Assembly (NCBI RefSeq): GCF_004310865.1
Contig: NZ_SIXI01000001.1
Span: 310,001 to 374,000, forward strand
From: Aquabacterium lacunae
Lineage (GTDB): Bacteria > Pseudomonadota > Gammaproteobacteria > Burkholderiales > Burkholderiaceae_C
DNA: 64,000 bases
Reading direction: 5' to 3'
Shown here: positions 36,346-58,303 of the stretch, in pieces
Layout: the number at the start of each line of letters is the position of its first letter
Position numbering within the stretch: position 1 is the stretch's first letter
Made by a program: the position numbers and the translations under genes
The notes under the pieces: model-generated
Told to the model about the DNA's origin: nothing
Databases searched by the model: none
What the model saw: only the letters and a program-made list of their open reading frames with translations

Positions 36346-38634
36346 ATGTCCGTGACGAACACCGACCCCTGGTTCGACCTGGTGCCCCTGGCCATGGCCG
36401 AGTTCGAAGAACAAGGCCTCTGGCTGCGCCACAACGCGGCGTTCACGCGCATGACCGGTCTCAACCCCGAGCCGGGCACGCACGTGGCCACCCTGCCCGC
36501 GGCCCTGCAACAGCTGGTGGGCTGGGACAGCCCGGTGGCGCTGCTGGGCCTGCGCCCGGGTGACGCGCCGCTGCCCACGCGCACCGGCTGGTCCAAGGCG
36601 GGGCACCCCGCACGCAGCCTGCGTGCAGACGTGCACGCCCAGCCGGGTGCCGAAGGCAGCCAGCGCCGCTTCCTGTGTGTGCTGCAGGCCGCCGTGGCCA
36701 CGCCGCCAGCACCATCCAGCGCGGGCGCACCACCGCGTCCTGCAGAGGGTGCCGAAGGTCAGCCCCTGGCGCACGCCTCGGACAGCGAAGCCCTGCTGCG
36801 CGAGCTCACCATGATCCTGGAAAGCTCCCCGGCCGGCATTGCCTACCTGCGGGGCAACACCCTGGTGCGCTGCAACCGGCGCTTCGAACGCATGCTGGGC
36901 ATGGCCGGCACCACGCTCACCAACATGAGCCTGGACACCCTGCTCAACCACGACGCACGCATCCGCCGTTTCGCCGCCGATTTCGTGCCCCGTCTGCAGG
37001 CCGAAGGCCAGTTCGAACGCGAACTCGAAATCCTGGTGCCCGGCCTGCCCACGCTCTGGTACACGCTCACGGTCAAGCGCATCGGTGACGTCAACGGCCC
37101 GCTGGAAGCCATTGCCGTGCTGTCCGACACCAGCCGCATCCGCAAACAGACCATCCGCCTCGAGGCCATGGAGCGCGACCTGGCCCAGCAGGCCGACCGC
37201 ACGCGTGCCATCCTCGACTCGGTGTTCGTGGGCATCGTCACCATCGACCCCAACGGCATCAGCTGGATGAACCGCTCGGCGCGGCGCATGTTCGCCGGCG
37301 ACCTGTCCGACTTCGTGGGCAAACCGCTGGCCACCGTGGCCACGCACGACATCGACCACCCCTTCCGCATCACCGACTACCTCGACACCCTGCAAGACGG
37401 CCAGTCGCACACCTTCGAATGCCAGGTGATGGCCCGTGACGGCCGCGTCTTCTGGGTGGTGGGCAATGCCGTGGTGATCGATGTCGAATCGACCCACCGG
37501 CAGGTCACCTACGCACTGCTGGACATCGACCGTCGCCGCCAGGCCGAAGCCCGTTCGGCCGAGGCCGAAGCCCGGCTGAAGCGCATCATCGAGATGGCGC
37601 CCATGGCCATCACGGTGCACGAAGCCGGCAGCCTCAAGCTGCTGCAGGCCAACCAGAGCGCCGCCAGCTTCATGCAGCGCGATGCGGGCCAGGCCGTGGG
37701 GCAATCGCTCAACGAGATCTACCCCGAAGCCCGAGCCCGCCTGCTGGGCCTGGAAATGAACTCGGCACTCGATGCCCAGCACGCGGTCCAGAAAGAGCAC
37801 CGCATCGAAGGCAGCACCCGTGGCACCGCCCAGATCTGGGACGTGAACTACCTGCCGCTGCAGGGCGACGGCGACACGCCCGACCAGGTGCTGATGGTGG
37901 CCTCGGACATCACCGAGCAGCGGGCCGCTGAAAACGCGCGCCTGGAAGCGGCCATCACCCAGCGCGAAATGCTGGTCAAAGAGGTGCACCACCGCATCAA
38001 GAACAACCTGCAGGGCGTGGCCGGCCTGCTGCAGCAGATCGCCGCACGCAAGCCAGAAGTGGCGCCCGCCATTGCCGAAGTGGTGGGGCAGGTGCAGGCC
38101 ATTGCCCAGGTGTACGGCCTGCAGGTGGGCACCGGCGGCCCGCTTCGACTGGACAGCGTGGTCTCGGCCATTGCCGGCTCGGTGCAGAAAACCTTCGGTC
38201 GACAGATCGACCACGGCCAACCCGAAGCCACGCGGGTGCCCTGGCTGCTGCCCGAGGCCGAATCCATCCCGATTGCACTGTGTCTGAACGAATTGCTGAC
38301 CAACGCGCACAAGCACAGCCCGCAGGCGCCTGCCGGTCAAGCCCTGCCTCTGCACTGTGAGCTGCAGTGCGACGAACAGGGTGCCCAGATCTGCATCCGC
38401 AACCCGGGGCAACTGCCCGAAGGCTTCAGCGTGGACCAGATCCGGGGCGGAGTGTCGGGCCTGGGGTTGGTGCGCGCGTTGATGCCCCGGCGCAGTTCGC
38501 GCATCCAGATGCGGCAGGATGGCAACTGGGTGGTGACGGTGCTGCAACTGACCCCACCGGGTATCGTGCAGGGGGAGCCCCCCGCAACCCTGGGTGAGCC
38601 CACTGGTCAACAGTACGCGCTTTGGCCACAATAA
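36346..38634 (+). CDS. PAS-domain sensor kinase, HisKA_2 type
   Basis: A 762-residue cytoplasmic kinase with no membrane helix. At least three or four PAS-like regions lie before residue ~530 (e.g. ILESSPAGIAYLRGNTLVRCNRRFERMLG; ILDSVFVGIVTIDPNGISWMNRSARRMF; IIEMAPMAITVHEAGSLKLLQANQS). The transmitter starts EMLVKEVHHRIKNNLQGV, with phospho-acceptor at H548/H549, the HisKA_2 signature. An HATPase follows (LCLNELLTNAHKHS, RGGVSGLGLV). HisKA_2 kinases frequently pair with ANTAR regulators, and the next gene is one. No target system is adjacent. Confidence 0.85.
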   Translation: MSVTNTDPWFDLVPLAMAEFEEQGLWLRHNAAFTRMTGLNPEPGTHVATLPAALQQLVGWDSPVALLGLRPGDAPLPTRTGWSKAGHPARSLRADVHAQPGAEGSQRRFLCVLQAAVATPPAPSSAGAPPRPAEGAEGQPLAHASDSEALLRELTMILESSPAGIAYLRGNTLVRCNRRFERMLGMAGTTLTNMSLDTLLNHDARIRRFAADFVPRLQAEGQFERELEILVPGLPTLWYTLTVKRIGDVNGPLEAIAVLSDTSRIRKQTIRLEAMERDLAQQADRTRAILDSVFVGIVTIDPNGISWMNRSARRMFAGDLSDFVGKPLATVATHDIDHPFRITDYLDTLQDGQSHTFECQVMARDGRVFWVVGNAVVIDVESTHRQVTYALLDIDRRRQAEARSAEAEARLKRIIEMAPMAITVHEAGSLKLLQANQSAASFMQRDAGQAVGQSLNEIYPEARARLLGLEMNSALDAQHAVQKEHRIEGSTRGTAQIWDVNYLPLQGDGDTPDQVLMVASDITEQRAAENARLEAAITQREMLVKEVHHRIKNNLQGVAGLLQQIAARKPEVAPAIAEVVGQVQAIAQVYGLQVGTGGPLRLDSVVSAIAGSVQKTFGRQIDHGQPEATRVPWLLPEAESIPIALCLNELLTNAHKHSPQAPAGQALPLHCELQCDEQGAQICIRNPGQLPEGFSVDQIRGGVSGLGLVRALMPRRSSRIQMRQDGNWVVTVLQLTPPGIVQGEPPATLGEPTGQQYALWPQ

Positions 38635-38735
38635 GGAACTCAGGCGCCGCTCCCCAGAGAAAATGAGCCGCGTTAAACTATAACGTTTCAACCAGGTGGT
38701 GCGTCTCGCGAGCACCGCACGACGTCCCCATCGAC

Positions 38736-39422
38736 ATGACCGCAGGCAACAAAGGCAAAGTGCTCGTCGTTGACGATGACCGACTCGTGCTCGCCACCGT
38801 GACCCATGGCCTGGCCCAGGCCGGCTTCGAAGTGATCGACGCCGACAACGGCGACGACGCCATCCTGCTGGCCCGCCAGCACAAGCCCGACCTGGCCCTG
38901 CTCGACATCCGCATGGAGGGCAAGAGTGGCTTCGACGTGGCCGCTTACCTGCGCGAGTATTGCCAGATCCCTTTCATGTTCCTGTCGGCGTTCTCTGACG
39001 AGGCCACCATCGCCCAGGTCAAGGCCCTGGGGGCTGTGACCTACCTGGTCAAGCCGCTCGACGTGAAACAGATCGTGCCGGCCGTGGAAGCGGCCTTCGC
39101 CAGCCGGGGCCTGAACGGCCAGCACCAGCCGGCCAGCAACGAGCCTGCCACCCCTGACCTGCTCACCGCCGCCGCGCCCGCGGCACCCGAGGGGCTGGAT
39201 GAAGCCCTGGCGCCTGCGGCGAACGCCGAGGTGCCAGACCCCACCACACAGACCGTGGCCCTGGCCATCGGCATCGTGATGCACCGTCACTCGATGGGTG
39301 CTCAGCAGGCCCTGGCTCGGCTGGAGCAGCAGGCCCGCAGCGAAGGTCGCACCCTGCAGGCGCTGACCGAGCGCCTGGTGCATGCCCAGGAAGTGCTGGC
39401 CACACTGGGCAGCCTGGGCTGA
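38736..39422 (+). CDS. ANTAR-domain response regulator (RNA-binding antiterminator)
   Basis: A 228-residue regulator. Receiver 1-~125 has acidic residues VVDDDR, phospho-acceptor D57 in LALLDIRMEG and K in YLVKPLD. A ~40-residue Ala/Pro linker follows. The C-terminal ANTAR domain is ~165-225 (VALAIGIVMHRHSMGAQQALARLEQQARSEG). ANTAR proteins bind paired hexaloop hairpins in nascent RNA and block terminators. It sits 101 nt after the HisKA_2 kinase and is its likely partner. RNA targets are unidentified. It ends 21 nt from the convergent kinase gene. Confidence 0.88.
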   Translation: MTAGNKGKVLVVDDDRLVLATVTHGLAQAGFEVIDADNGDDAILLARQHKPDLALLDIRMEGKSGFDVAAYLREYCQIPFMFLSAFSDEATIAQVKALGAVTYLVKPLDVKQIVPAVEAAFASRGLNGQHQPASNEPATPDLLTAAAPAAPEGLDEALAPAANAEVPDPTTQTVALAIGIVMHRHSMGAQQALARLEQQARSEGRTLQALTERLVHAQEVLATLGSLG

Positions 39423-51410: not shown

Positions 51411-52001
51411 ATGTCGTCAGCCAGCACCACCGCATCCACCGCCGAATCTGCACACACCACCCCGGTCGGTCGCCCCGTGCAGCCTTTCGACGTGCTGGAC
51501 GCCTGCCACCGCCAGATGGTGGTGGCCTTGCAGCAACTCGACGAGCTCACGGCACGGCTGGAAGACCATGGGGTCGACGGCAAGACCCGCACCCTGGCCA
51601 AGGACCTGTTCCTGTTCTTCACGAACACCGCCCGTGAGCACCACCTCGACGAAGAAAAGCATGTGTTCCCGGCCTTGCTGACCAGCGACGACGACGAGCT
51701 GGTGCGCCTGACGCTGCGGCTGCAGCAGGACCATGGCTGGATCGAAGAAGACTGGCTTCAGCTGGCCCCTCAGATCGAAGCCATCGCCGCAGGCTACAAC
51801 TGGTTCAACATCGACTACCTGCGCGCGGCCATTCCGGTGTTCAAGGCCCTGTACCAGGACCACATGGCCCTGGAGGAGTCGATGATCTACCCCGAGGCCC
51901 GCAGCCGCATCGGTGAATGGGACCTCCGGGGCATGGGCCGCGAAATGGCCGCACGCCGTCGCCAGGCGGGCCAGGCGCCCCACATGGAACAAGCCGCCTG
52001 A
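51411..52001 (+). CDS. Hemerythrin HHE-domain protein
   Basis: A 196-residue cytosolic protein. The start ATG at 51411 is preceded by GGGGAG at good spacing. After a ~30-residue Ser/Thr/Ala-rich head, the four-helix bundle has the expected di-iron ligands: H in DACHRQM, HxxxE and a following H in REHHLDEEKHVFPAL, H in LQQDHGWIEEDW, and HxxxxE in YQDHMALEESMIYPEA. Such proteins bind O2 or NO or help repair iron-sulphur clusters. It has its own terminator and lies immediately upstream of the nirBD control region, hinting at a role in NO or nitrite stress, which is inference. Confidence 0.87.
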   Translation: MSSASTTASTAESAHTTPVGRPVQPFDVLDACHRQMVVALQQLDELTARLEDHGVDGKTRTLAKDLFLFFTNTAREHHLDEEKHVFPALLTSDDDELVRLTLRLQQDHGWIEEDWLQLAPQIEAIAAGYNWFNIDYLRAAIPVFKALYQDHMALEESMIYPEARSRIGEWDLRGMGREMAARRRQAGQAPHMEQAA

Positions 52002-52041
52002 GGCGGCCCGAGGCGCAGCACTGCGCTGCTGCACCTCCTTC

Positions 52042-52078
52042 AGCGCCCCTGGCCTGCATGGGCTTCGGGCGCTTTTTT
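52042..52078 (+). terminator. Intrinsic terminator after hemerythrin gene
   Basis: AGCGCCC (52042-52048) and GGGCGCT (52067-52073) pair, with a small internal stem between, followed by TTTTTT to 52078. This isolates the nirB control region from upstream transcription. Confidence 0.85.
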
Positions 52079-52083
52079 GCGCG

Positions 52084-52100
52084 CACACCATCTTGGTGCG
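52084..52100 (+). promoter_or_regulatory. Second, weaker NtrC-like site
   Basis: CACACC-ATCTT-GGTGCG matches the NtrC consensus TGCACC-N5-GGTGCA at 9 of 12 positions. Its centre is 25 bp upstream of the perfect site. Tandem NtrC sites promote cooperative binding. Confidence 0.55.
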
Positions 52101-52108
52101 CGGCGCAC

Positions 52109-52125
52109 TGCACCACAGCGGTGCA
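52109..52125 (+). promoter_or_regulatory. NtrC enhancer site upstream of nirB
   Basis: TGCACC-ACAGC-GGTGCA is a perfect match to the NtrC consensus, with the symmetry extended by one more C/G pair. The centre is about 129 bp upstream of the predicted sigma-54 start, an ordinary enhancer distance. Confidence 0.8.
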
Positions 52126-52219
52126 GCAACCCACACATCTGCCCGCACATCGGCCTGCGCAACACCCTGCTGCGGGCATTCGCGCCATCGCCCAGGCGGC
52201 ATCCCCCTGGACAAGGCCC

Positions 52220-52235
52220 TGGCACAGCGTTTGCA
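52220..52235 (+). promoter_or_regulatory. Sigma-54 (-24/-12) promoter of nirBD
   Basis: C-TGGCAC-AGCGT-TTGCA matches the RpoN consensus TGGCAC-N5-TTGCW. The -12 GC is at 52233-52234, so transcription should start near 52246 and produce a ~196-nt leader before the nirB ATG. Within 52246-52441 I see weak hairpins, including GGTCT/AGACC at 52262-52276 and TCAGG/CCTGA with a 6-nt loop CCACGC at 52313-52328, but no U-tract terminator. Confidence 0.8.
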
Positions 52236-52441
52236 TGAGTGTGTACGTCCGCAGGCAACGAGGTCTCGGGCAGACCCGGTTCGGCACCACTGACGAAGGT
52301 GGTTTCCAGCCCTCAGGCCACGCCCTGACGACGGCTGATGCACCCCGAACCGCACAGGATTGATTGCGCCCCCAAGCGCAGCCCCTCGTTGCCACGCGGC
52401 CGCCCGACCAGGCTGCAGCAACCCGTTCCCCAGGAGCAGCC

Positions 52442-54973
52442 ATGAAGATTGTCGTCGTCGGCCACGGTATGGTGGGCCACAAGTTCCTCGAAAGCCTTGC
52501 TGAATCCGGCGTGCAGAGCGCCGAAGTCACCGTGCTGTGCGAAGAACCACGCCCCGCCTACGACCGCGTGCACCTGTCCGAATACTTCTCGGGCAAGACC
52601 GCCGAAGACCTGTCCCTGGTCGAAACCGGCTTTTTCGAGCGCACCGGCTTCAGCCTGCGCCTGACCGCACGCGCCGCCACCATCGAGCGCCGCCACAAAA
52701 CGGTCACCACCGCCGCGGGCGAAACCCTGCCCTACGACAAGCTGGTGCTGGCCACCGGCTCGAACGCCTTCGTGCCGCCGGTGCCCGGCCGCGACCGCCC
52801 CGACTGCTTCGTGTACCGCACCATCGAAGACCTGGATGCCATGAAGGCGGCCGGCGCCCGCAGCAAGTCGGGGGTGGTGGTGGGCGGCGGCCTGCTGGGC
52901 CTGGAGTGCGCCAAGGCCCTGCGCGACATGGGGCTGGAGACCCACGTGGTCGAGTTCGCGCCGCGCCTGATGGCCGTGCAGGTCGACGACGGCGGGGGTC
53001 GCATCCTGCGCGAGAAGATCGAAGCCCTGGGCGTGAAGGTGCACACCAGCCGCAACACGACAGAAATTGTCGATGGCGCCACGGCCCGCCACCGCATGGT
53101 GTTTGCCGACGGCACCCACCTCGAAACCGACATGATCGTGTTCTCGGCCGGCATCCGCCCCCGCGACGAACTGGCCCGTGCCAGCCTGCTGCCGGTGGGT
53201 GCCCGCGGCGGGGTGGCCATCGACAGCCATTGCCGCACGGCCGACACCGACATCTACGCCGTGGGCGAATGCGCCGCCTGGAACGACCAGACCTTCGGCC
53301 TGGTGGCCCCCGGCTACGACATGGCCCGCGTGGCGGCCAAGCACATCGCTGGTGACGCCGATGCAGCATTCACCGGCGCCGACATGAGCACCAAACTCAA
53401 GCTCATGGGCGTGGACGTGGCCTCGATCGGTGACGCCCACGGCAAAACCGCAGGTTGCCGCAGCTTCCAGTACATCGACGAGGTCAAGCAGGTCTACAAG
53501 AAGATCGTGGTCAGCGCCGATGGCAGGCAGCTGCTGGGCGCCGTGCTGGTGGGCAATGCCGACGAATACGGCACCTTGCTGCAGATGGCCCTGAACGGCA
53601 TCGCCCTGCCCGACGAGCCCGAATTCCTGATCCTGCCCAGCAGCGACGGCAAGGCCAAGCCTGGCCTGGGCCCCGACGCCCTGCCCGACTCGGCCCAGAT
53701 CTGCTCGTGCAACAACGTCACCAAGGGCCAGATCTGCGCGGCCGTGGCCGAAGGCACCTGCACCATCGGCGACATGAAGGCCTGCACCAAGGCCGGCGCC
53801 ACCTGCGGCGGCTGCGTGCCCCTGGTCACCCAGGTCATGAAGAGCGAGATGGCCAAGCGCGGCATGGCCGTCAACAACCACCTGTGCGAGCACTTCCCCT
53901 ACTCGCGCCAGGAGCTGTTCCACCTGGTGCGCGTGGGCCAGATCAAGAGCTTCGACGACCTGATCGCCAAGCACGGCAAGGGCCTGGGCTGCGACATCTG
54001 CAAGCCGACCGCCGCCAGCATCTTCGCCTCGGTGTGGAACGACTTCGTGCTCAAGCCCCAGCTGGCCAGCCTGCAGGACAGCAACGACTACTTCCTGGGC
54101 AACATCCAGAAAGACGGCACCTACAGCGTGGTGCCCCGCATGCCCGGTGGTGAAGTCACGCCCGATGGCCTGATCGCCGTGGGCCAGGTCGCCAAGAAGT
54201 ACGGCCTGTACACCAAGATCACGGGCGGTGCCCGCGTGGACATGTTCGGTGCGCGCGTCGAGCAACTGCCCGCCATCTGGGAAGAGCTGATCGCCGCCGG
54301 CTTTGAGTCAGGCCATGCCTATGGCAAGAGCCTGCGCACGGTCAAGAGCTGCGTGGGCAGCACCTGGTGTCGCTATGGCGTGGACGACTCCATCGGCCTG
54401 GGCGTCGAACTGGAGAACCGTTACAAGGGCCTGCGCGCGCCGCACAAAATCAAGTTCGGCGTGTCAGGTTGCACCCGCGAATGCGCCGAAGCCCAGGGCA
54501 AGGATGTGGGCGTGATCGCCACCGAAAAGGGCTGGAACCTGTACGTGTGCGGCAATGGCGGCATGAAGCCCCGCCATGCCGAGCTGTTCGCCTCTGACCT
54601 GAGCAAGGCCCAGCTGATCCAGCTGATCGACCGCTTCCTGATGTTCTACGTGCGCACCGGCGACCGCCTGCAGCGCACCAGCACCTGGCGCGAAAACCTC
54701 GAGGGCGGCCTGGACTACCTCAAGAGCGTGCTGATCGACGACAAGCTGGGCATTGCCGCCGAGCTGGAAGCCCAGATGCAGCACGTGGTGGACACCTACC
54801 AGTGCGAATGGAAGAGCGCCGTGACCACGCCCGAGGTGCGCCAGCGCTTCCGCAGCTTCGTCAACAGCGACGCGGTGGATGCCACCGTGAAGTTCGTGCG
54901 GGACCGCGGCCAGATCCGCCCCGCCCGCCCCGAAGAGCGCGAACAGGCCGCCACCAACGCCCTCGACGCCTGA
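52442..54973 (+). CDS. nirB: Assimilatory NADH nitrite reductase large subunit
   Basis: An 843-residue cytosolic enzyme reducing nitrite to ammonia with NAD(P)H. The ATG at 52442 has GGAG upstream and starts the FAD-binding motif VVVGHGMVGHKFLE. A second dinucleotide fold is near GVVVGGGLLGLECAKAL. The BFD-like [2Fe-2S] region is CSCNNVTKGQI with CGGC. The sirohaem/[4Fe-4S] ligands are C-x5-C (SCVGSTWC) and C-x3-C (GCTREC). The enzyme appears complete. It is controlled from a sigma-54/NtrC promoter, indicating use in nitrogen assimilation, with nirD following at 28 nt. Confidence 0.96.
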   Translation: MKIVVVGHGMVGHKFLESLAESGVQSAEVTVLCEEPRPAYDRVHLSEYFSGKTAEDLSLVETGFFERTGFSLRLTARAATIERRHKTVTTAAGETLPYDKLVLATGSNAFVPPVPGRDRPDCFVYRTIEDLDAMKAAGARSKSGVVVGGGLLGLECAKALRDMGLETHVVEFAPRLMAVQVDDGGGRILREKIEALGVKVHTSRNTTEIVDGATARHRMVFADGTHLETDMIVFSAGIRPRDELARASLLPVGARGGVAIDSHCRTADTDIYAVGECAAWNDQTFGLVAPGYDMARVAAKHIAGDADAAFTGADMSTKLKLMGVDVASIGDAHGKTAGCRSFQYIDEVKQVYKKIVVSADGRQLLGAVLVGNADEYGTLLQMALNGIALPDEPEFLILPSSDGKAKPGLGPDALPDSAQICSCNNVTKGQICAAVAEGTCTIGDMKACTKAGATCGGCVPLVTQVMKSEMAKRGMAVNNHLCEHFPYSRQELFHLVRVGQIKSFDDLIAKHGKGLGCDICKPTAASIFASVWNDFVLKPQLASLQDSNDYFLGNIQKDGTYSVVPRMPGGEVTPDGLIAVGQVAKKYGLYTKITGGARVDMFGARVEQLPAIWEELIAAGFESGHAYGKSLRTVKSCVGSTWCRYGVDDSIGLGVELENRYKGLRAPHKIKFGVSGCTRECAEAQGKDVGVIATEKGWNLYVCGNGGMKPRHAELFASDLSKAQLIQLIDRFLMFYVRTGDRLQRTSTWRENLEGGLDYLKSVLIDDKLGIAAELEAQMQHVVDTYQCEWKSAVTTPEVRQRFRSFVNSDAVDATVKFVRDRGQIRPARPEEREQAATNALDA

Positions 54974-55001: not shown

Positions 55002-55355
55002 ATGTGTGCCGCCATCCTCAAGACGCCCGCCATGACCGACATCGCCATTTGCCCTGCAGACCAGATCGTGCCCGACACCGGCGTGTGTGCACTGGTCGAT
55101 GGCCAGCCCGTGGCGGTGTTCCGTGTGGGCACCGATCAATTCTTCGCCATCGACAACATCGACCCCAAGAACGGCGCCAACGTGCTTTCGCGCGGCCTGG
55201 TCGGCAACCTGGGTGATCGCATCGTCGTGGCCTCCCCTTTGTACAAGCACCACTTCGACCTCCGCACCGGTGAGTGTCTGGAGAACGCCGACTGGTCGGT
55301 GCGCGCCCACAAGGTGCGCATTGAACAAGGGCAGGTGCTCGTCACCCTCGGCTGA
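55002..55355 (+). CDS. nirD: Nitrite reductase small subunit
   Basis: A 117-residue Rieske-fold partner of NirB. AAAGGA precedes the ATG. The fold is recognisable (VFRVGTDQFFAIDNIDPKNGANVLSRG, then VASPLYKHHFDLRTGECLE), but the paired Cys/His cluster ligands of true Rieske proteins are absent, which is normal for NirD. Residues 1-~12 may be an extension, since a second Met occurs at residue 11. No nitrate reductase gene follows; a strong terminator at 55485-55533 ends the operon. Confidence 0.93.
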   Translation: MCAAILKTPAMTDIAICPADQIVPDTGVCALVDGQPVAVFRVGTDQFFAIDNIDPKNGANVLSRGLVGNLGDRIVVASPLYKHHFDLRTGECLENADWSVRAHKVRIEQGQVLVTLG

Positions 55356-55484: not shown

Positions 55485-55533
55485 CGGCACTCTGCCTCCC
55501 CGACACCGGCCCGGGGCAGAGTGCCGATTTTTT
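55485..55533 (+). terminator. Strong intrinsic terminator between nirD and NIT-ANTAR gene
   Basis: CGGCACTCTGCC and GGCAGAGTGCCG form a perfect 12-bp stem followed by TTTTTT (55528-55533). It ends nirBD transcription or, if read-through is regulated, attenuates the NIT-ANTAR gene 72 nt downstream. Confidence 0.93.
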
Positions 55534-55604: not shown

Positions 55605-56909
55605 ATGTCCATGCCCTTGACCGTCTCCCAAGTGGTGCTGGCCGCCCGCCAGCGCGAAATCGAATCCATCCAGCACCTGGCCAGCCGCACCGAGCTGGTC
55701 GATGTGCTGGGGCAGCTCATCCACGCGCTGCAGCGTGAACGGGGTGCTACCAGCGTCTACCTGGCCTCGGGAGGCCAGCGCTTCGCCGACGTGCGGCAAG
55801 CGGCCATCGGCCAGGCGCAAGCCCTGGAAGCCCAGGTGCGCGAGGCCTTCGAGCGCCAGGCCCAGCCCGAGCAGGGCGCCTCCAGCCGCATGCTCTCGCT
55901 GATGGCCTGGGTGCTGCTCGACCTCGACGCCCTGCGCGGCCTGCGCGCGGCGGTCGACCAGCGCGCCTGGTCGGCCCATGACTCGGTGGCCGCCTTCAGC
56001 CGCCTGCTGGCCGGCATGGTCGAACTGGTGTTCCTGGTGGCCGACGCCACGCTGAACCCGCGCGTGTCGCGTCTGCTGGTGGCCTGCGTGCACCTGCTGC
56101 AGGGCATGGAAGCCGCCGGGCAGGAACGCGCCATCGGGGCCCTGCTGCTGGCCTCGGGGCAGCTGGACGAAGGCGACCGCCAGCGCATGGTGCACCTGAT
56201 CGACGCGCAAGAGCGCAGCCTGAAGGTGTTCGACGAGTTCGCCCCGCCCGACATCAAGGCGCGCTGGGCCCAGCACCAGCTCAGCAGTGGCTCGGCCCAG
56301 CTGGAGCGCCTGCGCCGCACCCTGTGTACGGCGCGCGCCGACACCCCGCTCGACGCGGGCCAGAGCGACGCCTGGTTCAGCGTGTGCAGCGAGCGCATCG
56401 ACGAACTGTGGCAGCTGCAATGCGCCCTGACCGCGCAAATGCGCGCCGACTGCAGCCAGCAGATCGAGCGCGCCCGGCAAGACCTCAGCGACACCGAAGG
56501 CCTGCTGCGCCAGTTGCGCGACAACCCGCCAGCCCACACCCACGCGGTCGATCGCTTCTTCGACACGCAGCAGACCCCGCAGGCGGCCCCGGTGATCACG
56601 CCCCCTCCGACCGGTGAAGCAGGCGCAGGCGAGCAGGCCCGCACCTCGCTGGTCGATCTGCTGGAAGCGCAAACCGCACGCCTTGGCAAGATGGAGGCCG
56701 AGCTGGCGGCCGCACGCCGCGCCCTGAACGACCGCAAGGTGATCGACCGTGCCAAGGGCTTGCTGATGAACCGCCTGGGCATGACCGAAGACGTGGCCTT
56801 CCGCACTTTGCAGAAAACCGCCATGGACCAGAACCGCCGCCTGGTGGACGTGGCCGAGGCCATGCTGGCCCTGCCCGATTTCGCCTTCGCGGCGCGCACC
56901 AAGGGCTGA
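55605..56909 (+). CDS. NIT-ANTAR nitrate/nitrite-responsive antiterminator
   Basis: A 434-residue cytosolic regulator. The ATG at 55605 opens MSMPLTVSQVVLAARQREIESIQ; the upstream frame lies in the terminator region. Residues ~25-320 match the helical NIT sensor domain (LGQLIHALQRERGATSVYLASGGQRF is the recognisable opening), which binds nitrate and nitrite in Klebsiella NasR. Residues ~370-432 are ANTAR (DRKVIDRAKGLLMNRLGMTEDVAFRTLQKTAMDQNRRL). Ligand binding would free it to bind RNA hairpins and prevent termination. Position after nirBD fits a nitrate-assimilation regulator. NasR homology is by domain plan, not proven orthology. Confidence 0.88.
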   Translation: MSMPLTVSQVVLAARQREIESIQHLASRTELVDVLGQLIHALQRERGATSVYLASGGQRFADVRQAAIGQAQALEAQVREAFERQAQPEQGASSRMLSLMAWVLLDLDALRGLRAAVDQRAWSAHDSVAAFSRLLAGMVELVFLVADATLNPRVSRLLVACVHLLQGMEAAGQERAIGALLLASGQLDEGDRQRMVHLIDAQERSLKVFDEFAPPDIKARWAQHQLSSGSAQLERLRRTLCTARADTPLDAGQSDAWFSVCSERIDELWQLQCALTAQMRADCSQQIERARQDLSDTEGLLRQLRDNPPAHTHAVDRFFDTQQTPQAAPVITPPPTGEAGAGEQARTSLVDLLEAQTARLGKMEAELAAARRALNDRKVIDRAKGLLMNRLGMTEDVAFRTLQKTAMDQNRRLVDVAEAMLALPDFAFAARTKG

Positions 56910-56932: not shown

Positions 56933-58303
56933 TCAAGGGCGCAGCGCCTGCAGGTGCTGCAGCACCGCTGCCCAGCCAGGCCGCTGGCCCACAGGGCCCA
57001 CGCAGGCCCGGTGCAGCGACCACCAGCCCTCCGGCACGGCGGCGCCAGCAGGGGGCACCACATGCGACAGCAGCTCGTGCAGGAAATGGCCCCAGGCCCG
57101 CACCTCCAGCGCGGCCATGCGGCCCGCCTGCGCGGTGTCGGCTTCATCGAAGGGCGTGGCCGCGCCGAAATCGCCCAGTCGCAAAGGCGCACCAGCGCGC
57201 CACATCAGGTTGTGGGCGTAAAAGTCACCATGCATCCAGCCTTGCGCGTGCAGGTGCGCCAAGGCCGAAGCCGTGTCGTGCGCCATCTGCCAGGCCTCGC
57301 GCAAGGGCCAGGCGCGGTCTGCGGGGTACACGTCACGTGAGCAGCTGGCCAGGCTGGGCGGGCCGGCCAGGGCCTGATGGTCAGCGGGCACCAGGGGCAT
57401 GAACAGGCCGTCACGGCCCTGCGGATGCCCCTGCAGCAAGCCCTTCACGCCGATCAGGTTGGGGTGCGGTGACACGCTCAGGCAGGCGGTCAGTTCGCTG
57501 TCGGGCCAGCCGTCGCTGGTCAACTCGCCCTTGAACACCTTCAGCGCCAGGGCTTCGCCCTGCGGGTGCTGGGGTGTCGGCGGCCAGGCCACCTGGTGGA
57601 TGTGGCCCGAGGCGCCTTCGCCCAGCAAGGCGCCCCACTGCAAGGCACTGAAGGGCACGCGAGGCAAGTCAGCGGCCCGCGCCGCCTGTGCCCGCCGCGA
57701 CTGCTCCAGCGCCTGCGTGGCCGGGTTGCCGGCCAGGGCCAGCCAGCACAGGGCCGGCAGGTCGAACAGCCAGTCGGGAAAGGCCTCGAAGGCGTTGGCC
57801 GACAGGCGCATCAGCGCCAGGTTCGGGGCCCCTGCCAGGGTGTCGGGCAGGTGGCTCAGGCGGTTGCCGGCCAGGGCCAGCTTTTCCAGGGCAGGCCGCT
57901 GGCCCAGGGTGTCGGGCAAGGCTTCGATGCGGTTACCCGTCAGGATCAGCCAGCGCAGGCGTGCGGGCAGGCTGCTGGCCGGCACCTCGGTGATCTGGTT
58001 GCTCTTGAAGCCCACCATGGTCAGTTGCGGGCAGGCCCCTACCACCTCGGGCACGCGCGTGAAGCGGTTGTCCGAGCAGAACAGCACCTTCAGGTGCCGC
58101 AACTCGGGCAGCCAGTCGGGCAGGCTGTGCAGCGCATTGCCACTGAGGTTGAGCACCTCCAGCGTGTCGGCCAGGGCCAGCACCTCGCGGGGCAACTCGG
58201 TCAGGCCCTCGGCCAGGTTCAGCCGGTTCAGGCCGGTCAGGCGGCCTGCGCGCAAATCGGAAAGGGTGTGCAAGGTCACAGGAACGGCCGCCCGTGACTG
58301 CAC
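56933..58303 (-). CDS. Leucine-rich-repeat protein kinase
   Basis: A 456-residue cytosolic protein. Residues ~20-215 contain seven or so LRRs of the L-x2-L-x-L-x2-N-x-L type (LEVLNLSGNALHSLPDWL, LRWLILTGNRIEALPDTL). Residues ~225-456 are a protein-kinase-like domain: Gly-rich loop LGEGASGHIHQV, Lys in ALKVFKG, catalytic loop HGDFYAHNLM and GDFGAA as the DFG segment. The HRD motif reads HGD, a variant seen in bacterial kinases. There is no signal peptide. The substrate is unknown. LRR-kinase fusions are uncommon in bacteria but recurrent in Burkholderiales. Confidence 0.85.
   Translation of the reverse strand: MQSRAAVPVTLHTLSDLRAGRLTGLNRLNLAEGLTELPREVLALADTLEVLNLSGNALHSLPDWLPELRHLKVLFCSDNRFTRVPEVVGACPQLTMVGFKSNQITEVPASSLPARLRWLILTGNRIEALPDTLGQRPALEKLALAGNRLSHLPDTLAGAPNLALMRLSANAFEAFPDWLFDLPALCWLALAGNPATQALEQSRRAQAARAADLPRVPFSALQWGALLGEGASGHIHQVAWPPTPQHPQGEALALKVFKGELTSDGWPDSELTACLSVSPHPNLIGVKGLLQGHPQGRDGLFMPLVPADHQALAGPPSLASCSRDVYPADRAWPLREAWQMAHDTASALAHLHAQGWMHGDFYAHNLMWRAGAPLRLGDFGAATPFDEADTAQAGRMAALEVRAWGHFLHELLSHVVPPAGAAVPEGWWSLHRACVGPVGQRPGWAAVLQHLQALRP

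Follow-up and report, generated by a model that had tools for sequence, protein, structure and literature searches.

An NtrC/sigma-54 promoter and a probable, diverged ANTAR-type leader predicted upstream of nirBD in Aquabacterium lacunae

In this study we focus on the region in front of the nirBD genes of Aquabacterium lacunae, in a stretch of 64,000 nucleotides (hereafter the window) that is part of a 3.9-Mb genome. Our analysis makes it reasonably likely that nirBD in this strain is under two-input control, in which initiation at an NtrC/sigma-54 promoter would be followed by control through a leader RNA read by a NasR-like protein. The locus comprises, in this order, a hemerythrin-domain gene, the control region, nirB, nirD and a gene encoding a NIT-ANTAR protein (ATG at 55605):

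52442..54973, + strand: nirB (Pfam NIR_SIR, Fer2_BFD, Pyr_redox_2 and others)
55002..55355, + strand: nirD (Rieske_2, 126.8 bits)
55485..55533, + strand: strong intrinsic terminator in the nirD-nasR gap, a long GC hairpin followed by T6
55605..56909, + strand: nasR-like gene with NIT and ANTAR domains (Pfam NIT 154.8 bits, ANTAR 77.2 bits)

On the minus strand, the gene at 56933-58303 encodes leucine-rich repeats together with a protein-kinase domain. The predicted promoter elements of the control region are the following:

52084..52100, + strand: weak NtrC-like copy CACACCATCTTGGTGCG, 3 mismatches, probably not meaningful alone
52109..52125, + strand: predicted NtrC-binding palindrome TGCACCACAGCGGTGCA, the sole match with 0 mismatches in the window
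52220..52235, + strand: predicted sigma-54 -24/-12 promoter TGGCACAGCGTTTGCA, exact TGGCAC-N5-TTGCA, with a predicted start at about 52245-52246

The assignment of these elements to an NtrC/sigma-54 promoter of nirBD can be made with very high confidence for a prediction from DNA motifs. The initial annotation had described a perfect NtrC palindrome and a TGGCAC-N5-TTGCA promoter, and both are borne out: the palindrome has no equal in the window, and the promoter string is exact and the single one in 64 kb, where 0.06 would be expected, with its -24 GG and -12 GC elements at the correct spacing. The tandem NtrC copy that it had also called is present as a string, but with its three mismatches it is at chance level: the window contains 99 NtrC-like matches with at most three mismatches, where 81 +/- 7 would be expected and none of 100 shuffles came to 99, and a single match of this kind means little. 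This weak copy lies just downstream of a T6-tailed terminator-like hairpin (52040-52080, -20.8 kcal/mol) that follows the hemerythrin-domain gene. The palindrome starts 111 bp from the sigma-54 start. Exact NtrC palindromes number three in the whole genome, another of them lying upstream of the gene at locus L118, which we take to be ammonium-transporter-like, and sites with at most one mismatch number 37 genome-wide, compared with 8 for the reversed control. Both rpoN and ntrC, the latter above cut-off, are present in the genome. The exact sigma-54 string occurs seven times in the whole genome, against two occurrences of the reversed control pattern, so that the string alone is no proof; this count speaks for the view that the promoter motifs are due to chance and that a vegetative promoter drives nirB. 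Such a situation is extremely unlikely, as both motifs are conserved in the genus and no sigma-70-like promoter emerged before nirB from a consensus scan.

Conservation of the two motifs in relatives had been set beforehand as the check on the promoter, and it turned out to be strong within the genus. We compared 34 nirB regions from other Aquabacterium species (35 loci with the window added) and a set of 80 nirB loci from named genomes, which shares records with the genus set and whose loci are related. In the 150 bp preceding the sigma-54 box, 28 of 35 loci have an NtrC-like palindrome with at most two mismatches, compared with 2.1% of shuffled regions, and 14 of 35 have one with at most one mismatch, compared with 0.1%. 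The palindrome-to-box spacing ranges from 23 to 135 bp, and is 86-111 bp in 23 of the 35. An automatic search recovered a sigma-54-like box (at least 8/11) at a fixed distance before the second leader hairpin described below in 32 of 34 congeners, while the boxes of L177 and L205, missed by the filters, were recognised by eye. Among the named genomes, 58 of 80 nirB loci have a box of at least 9/11 within 800 bp, a count for which no chance rate was computed and to which a few contigs ending near nirB belong. With rpoN and ntrC in the genome, the conserved motifs render the predicted control of nirBD, and hence of nitrite reduction, by nitrogen limitation well supported, as the initial annotation had proposed.

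Directly after the promoter, the leaders of the relatives contain two hairpins, of which hairpin 1 is variable and hairpin 2 (H2) is near-invariant, mostly of the form CCGC[CU]-AAYGAN-GGCGG. The published motif of ANTAR targets consists of two hexaloop hairpins with A at loop position 1 (A1) and G at position 4 (G4), as described in PMC3369931, and the predicted hairpins of the relatives fit it. Of the 80 named-genome loci, 49 carry the H2 core no more than 420 nt ahead of nirB, and in 45 of those 49 it lies 50-95 nt from the sigma-54 box. The other 31, in which it was not found, are mainly Cupriavidus, Oxalobacteraceae, Methylophilaceae and similar, and include both Delftia loci and Aquabacterium sp. 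A7-Y. A covariance model, R1, was built from 32 named-genome loci with the window left out. It recovers the nirB leader of 42 of the 80 loci (E <0.004, 29.7-67.2 bits), of which 32 are the training sequences and some others near-duplicates; with E allowed up to 1, it matches 33 of the 34 genus loci with 16.2-60.2 bits (L187 partial, L205 none), several of them being the same records as training loci. The covariation score of the A2 alignment (32 selected sequences) was reached by 0 of 500 shuffles. The pairs with two-sided changes in A2, seven and all in hairpin 1, are not above shuffles (142 of 500 reach this number), only 67.8% of hairpin-1 cells pair and hairpin 2 hardly varies, so that covariation support is moderate. 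ANTAR-type control in the lineage is highly probable.

In the window itself, the leader elements are:

52247..52271, + strand: ANTAR-type hairpin 1 (GUCCG-C-AGGC / AACGAG / GUCU-CGGGC), from the minimum-energy fold and the R1 alignment
52286..52303, + strand: ANTAR-type hairpin 2 (ACCACU / GACGAA / GGUGGU), from the minimum-energy fold and the R1 alignment
52384..52393, + strand: CCTCGTTGCC, exact 10-nt complement of the hairpin-1 segment 52254-52263, a possible but uncertain competing strand

Hairpin 1 begins 1-2 nt past the predicted transcript start. Its hexaloop (52257-52262, AACGAG) has both A1 and G4; the hexaloop of hairpin 2 (52292-52297, GACGAA) keeps G4 and has G at position 1. Of the 33 congeners in which H2 was recognised, 27 have A1 in loop 2, and the G is shared with 6 of 34 (L182-L186 and L196). 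According to PMC3369931, A1 is important for attenuation by NasR in vivo. Folded in isolation, this region adopts a minimum-energy structure with exactly both hairpins and one 3-bp helix between them. The ANTAR case for the window copy is made by the position of the loops relative to the sigma-54 start, 37 and 72 nt, where loop 2 of the congeners lies at 67-76 nt; loop 1 was sought solely at offsets 33-43, and a stem of at least three pairs was found there in 31 of 34 loci, window included. Of 20000 shuffles, one produced a pair of [AG]NNG hexaloop hairpins close to the conserved offsets, with thresholds chosen post hoc on the window. R1 aligns to the window leader over its full length (52238-52305) with a weak score of 11.9 bits and an E-value of 0.8 in 64 kb (rank 2) or 0.0088 over 701 bp. 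The leader is absent from the 13 matches of a genome-wide R1 search in which 150 of 4551 candidates were scored; the top match of that same search (24.5 bits) is inside an acyl-CoA-dehydrogenase-like gene and was set aside as a coding-sequence chance match. The exact complement CCTCGTTGCC is matched in length by 34 of 5000 shuffles, and competition of the downstream sequence with hairpin 1 is not significant by a folding-cost control (65 of 200); competition with hairpin 2 was not detected in the window.

Other candidates for a structured or regulatory RNA were tried and rejected. The idea of a new structured RNA, formed by a multi-branch fold of the entire leader, was dropped because the stability of the whole leader against shuffles is modest (z -1.8). 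With E allowed up to 10, no Rfam family matched the leader (52246-52441), the nearest being ncS54 at 52001-52080, with 20.7 bits, below the cut-off of 43. A second ANTAR leader at a narK/nasA cluster (L215) was not retained, its best R1 score being 7.6 bits. In that stretch (G000:C22:39500-50500), an NtrC-like site and TGGCATGGCGTTTGCT are seen at 1203-1253 just before a nitrate-transporter-like gene of the nasA cluster; the sigma-54-like pattern is about as common there as chance predicts (5 matches, 4.9 expected).

The candidate reader of the leader is encoded next to nirBD. The NIT-ANTAR protein (55605) contains a NIT domain and a C-terminal ANTAR domain and matches the Klebsiella oxytoca NasR structure 4AKK in both (E 9e-41); by analogy, we infer that it would bind RNA upon nitrate or nitrite. 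A NasR homologue on the same strand, at most 6.3 kb from the nirB start, is found in 25 of 34 congeners. None was seen in the nirB stretch of the other nine. One of these stretches is the 3.7-kb end of a contig, and G033, also among the nine, has a NasR homologue on the opposite strand at a distance of about 9 kb. The terminator at 55485-55533 is very stable (-33 kcal/mol, z -4.8; its stability was reached by none of 200 shuffles), and this T6 hairpin together with the 249-nt gap makes co-transcription of nirD and nasR unlikely; nasR is probably its own transcription unit. In the corresponding gaps of the 25 congeners with a same-strand homologue, a T5 run occurs in two (L191 and L195), and several have a GACAAT/TACAAT -10-like string instead. 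The sole other ANTAR match in the genome is a receiver-ANTAR gene at 38736-39422 of the window, beside a histidine kinase gene; we take this pair (36346-39422) to be PdtaS/PdtaR-like. Its ANTAR protein was considered as trans factor and put aside, the NIT-ANTAR gene adjoining nirBD being the better candidate.

Of the 34 genus leaders, 17 contain a terminator-like hairpin that starts within hairpin 2 and is followed by a U-rich 8-mer, where 3.5 would be expected from shuffled downstream sequence; among the named-genome leaders, 8 of 49 contain one, where 3.3 would be expected. In typical cases the 5' arm is GGCGGA from the 3' side of hairpin 2, as in L189 (T6 tail) and L194 (TTTTGATT). When overlap with hairpin 2 is not required, terminator-like hairpins with bulges and internal loops allowed occur in 20 of 34 genus leaders (7.8 expected) and 22 of 49 named-genome leaders (10.4). 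In the published ANTAR attenuator, the second hexaloop overlaps the terminator stem, as described in PMC8934654, and the predicted H2-overlapping terminators of the relatives are of this layout. An earlier reading, that ANTAR leaders of this clade have no terminators above chance, came from a scan without bulges and with loops of at most 12 (3 of 34, 2.4 expected; 6 of 49, 4.5 expected) and was withdrawn when bulge-tolerant scans showed the excess. In L077, L086, L090 and L091 (Pelomonas, Roseateles and two MAGs), a terminator-like GGCCCCGACC...GGGGCC hairpin followed by TTYTTACTGG is located after H2.

No terminator had been visible to the initial annotation in the window leader, and this holds in a bulge-tolerant scan: the longest T run is 3, no 8-mer has five T, no match was obtained with bulges allowed, and no intrinsic terminator overlapping hairpin 2 was found. 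Without a U-rich stretch, the leader therefore has no recognisable terminator. A simpler scan gave none either, yet it also missed the strong terminator at 55485-55533, which the bulge-tolerant scan recovered, and is insufficient alone. Leaders without a U-rich 8-mer number 8 of 34 in the genus, window included. Two defining features of the canonical ANTAR attenuator are thus missing, and the window RNA is probably a diverged homologue, as judged from sequence, which works now, or worked formerly, like an attenuator. The initial annotation had noted that a leader of about 196 nt leaves room for a second control layer and had left the matter there; in the form of ANTAR-type hairpins, such a layer very probably exists or existed.

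It is possible, if rather doubtful, that only the NtrC/sigma-54 layer functions in this strain and that the hairpins are a decayed remnant of the relatives' ANTAR attenuator. The weak R1 score and the G at loop-2 position 1 agree with this, as does the lack in the window of a U-rich 8-mer, an overlapping terminator or a pairing that competes with H2; moreover, congener L205 has the promoter, yet no recognisable H2. Decay is harder to reconcile with the NasR-like NIT and ANTAR gene that persists beside nirBD and with two hairpins that are both in the minimum-energy fold and keep G4. Nor does the loop-2 G argue strongly for it: five of the six congeners that share it have a downstream NasR homologue, four of these (L182, L183, L185 and L186) keep an overlapping terminator-like hairpin, and A1 makes no specific contact in the EutV-RNA structure described in PMC8934654.

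Pairing that competes with H2 is predicted in part of the relatives. The real downstream sequence disfavours H2 more than shuffled sequence does in 25 of 70 leaders (at most 2 of 40 shuffles; about 5 expected). The strand that competes with H2 is, in some genus leaders, CCGTCG beside the Shine-Dalgarno sequence; in L179, L187, L193 and L197, inspection by eye points to a mid-leader CGTT[AG]G. An exact CCGTCGCAGGAG, whose CCGTCG is complementary to the H2 core CGACGG, lies at most 40 nt from the ATG in 16 of 35 genus loci, and the wider [CT]CGTCG is found in 18 of the 71 H2-bearing leaders and in none of the 32 that lack H2 (Fisher P 0.0007, overstated because the loci are related). These counts favour a translational switch, in which the leader would fold over the ribosome-binding site when NasR is missing. 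We nevertheless hold it to be very unlikely: with the hairpins enforced, the predicted opening of the Shine-Dalgarno sequence improves by at least 1 kcal/mol in just 10 of 34 leaders, changes by 0.0 in the window and is 3.0 worse in L180, and CCGTCG is missing near the window ribosome-binding site. A general switch by Shine-Dalgarno sequestration was rejected on the same figures.

In the preferred two-input reading, phosphorylated NtrC bound at 52109-52125 would activate sigma-54 RNA polymerase at 52220-52235 under nitrogen limitation, as the conserved DNA suggests. The nirBD transcript would open with the two ANTAR-type hexaloop hairpins, and nitrate- or nitrite-loaded NasR may bind and stabilise them, lifting the leader block and allowing nirBD expression; this second step is modelled on the RNA of the relatives and on the neighbouring regulator gene. 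If the second layer is a NasR-read ANTAR RNA, the expected input is therefore nitrogen limitation AND nitrate/nitrite. The terminator that shares the 3' arm of hairpin 2 would form the block in roughly half of the genus. As no terminator is recognisable in the window, the block there would be of another kind (Rho, translation) or lost, and either the read-out has changed or the ANTAR layer is decaying. The terminator of the relatives, lacking here, lowers our confidence in ANTAR control for this strain. That a terminator-less NasR-type switch still works here through Rho-dependent termination or translation, perhaps also in other genus leaders without a U-rich stretch, is unlikely when taken together with the rest of this proposal, a competing strand re-wired between species (by the ribosome-binding site, mid-leader, or, in the window, against hairpin 1 and not 2) and a loop position 1 that is now free to be G. 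The sequence downstream of H2 is C-rich (mean C 0.37 and G 0.28 over 33 loci; 0.44 and 0.26 in the window), which is compatible with Rho but gives no evidence for it.

The Klebsiella nasF operon is under Ntr control. As in the K. oxytoca nasF/NasR system, a NIT-ANTAR regulator, homologous in both domains (4AKK), goes together here with a two-hairpin leader target on nitrate/nitrite assimilation genes (described for Klebsiella in PMC7496416 and PMC3369931), and half of the genus leaders share with nasF a terminator-like hairpin that overlaps hairpin 2. Unlike nasF, the window leader has no recognisable terminator and has G at loop-2 position 1, the target is nirBD, and nasR sits behind a separate terminator. 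Pseudomonas nirBD, as described in PMC12830290, likewise has an NtrC/sigma-54 promoter followed by a leader RNA, NalA, and control by an ANTAR protein; the regulator is NasT with NasS there, and a NIT-ANTAR protein here. The EutV target RNA of the Enterococcus eut genes (PMC3369931, PMC8934654) also consists of two hexaloop hairpins with G4, from which the window differs by the missing overlapping terminator and by the change of loop-2 A1 to G. The two-part logic of Ntr-type initiation and subsequent ANTAR control is thus already known from Klebsiella nasF/NasR and Pseudomonas nirBD/NalA/NasT. For the NAD(P)H-nitrite reductase genes of Pseudomonadota (COG1251), sigma-54 control has already been predicted in PMC12316311, whose main text does not name Aquabacterium and whose passage on this prediction does not treat the leader. 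From titles and abstract openings, no printed report of ANTAR leaders on nirBD in Burkholderiales was recognisable.

Thus the statement that nirBD is controlled by nitrogen limitation becomes a testable two-input gate, nitrogen limitation AND nitrate/nitrite, which would be relevant to Aquabacterium and to many related Burkholderiales and Rhodocyclales. The leaders of this group, with and without an H2-overlapping terminator, form a natural series that may show how much of an ANTAR switch outlasts the loss of its terminator.
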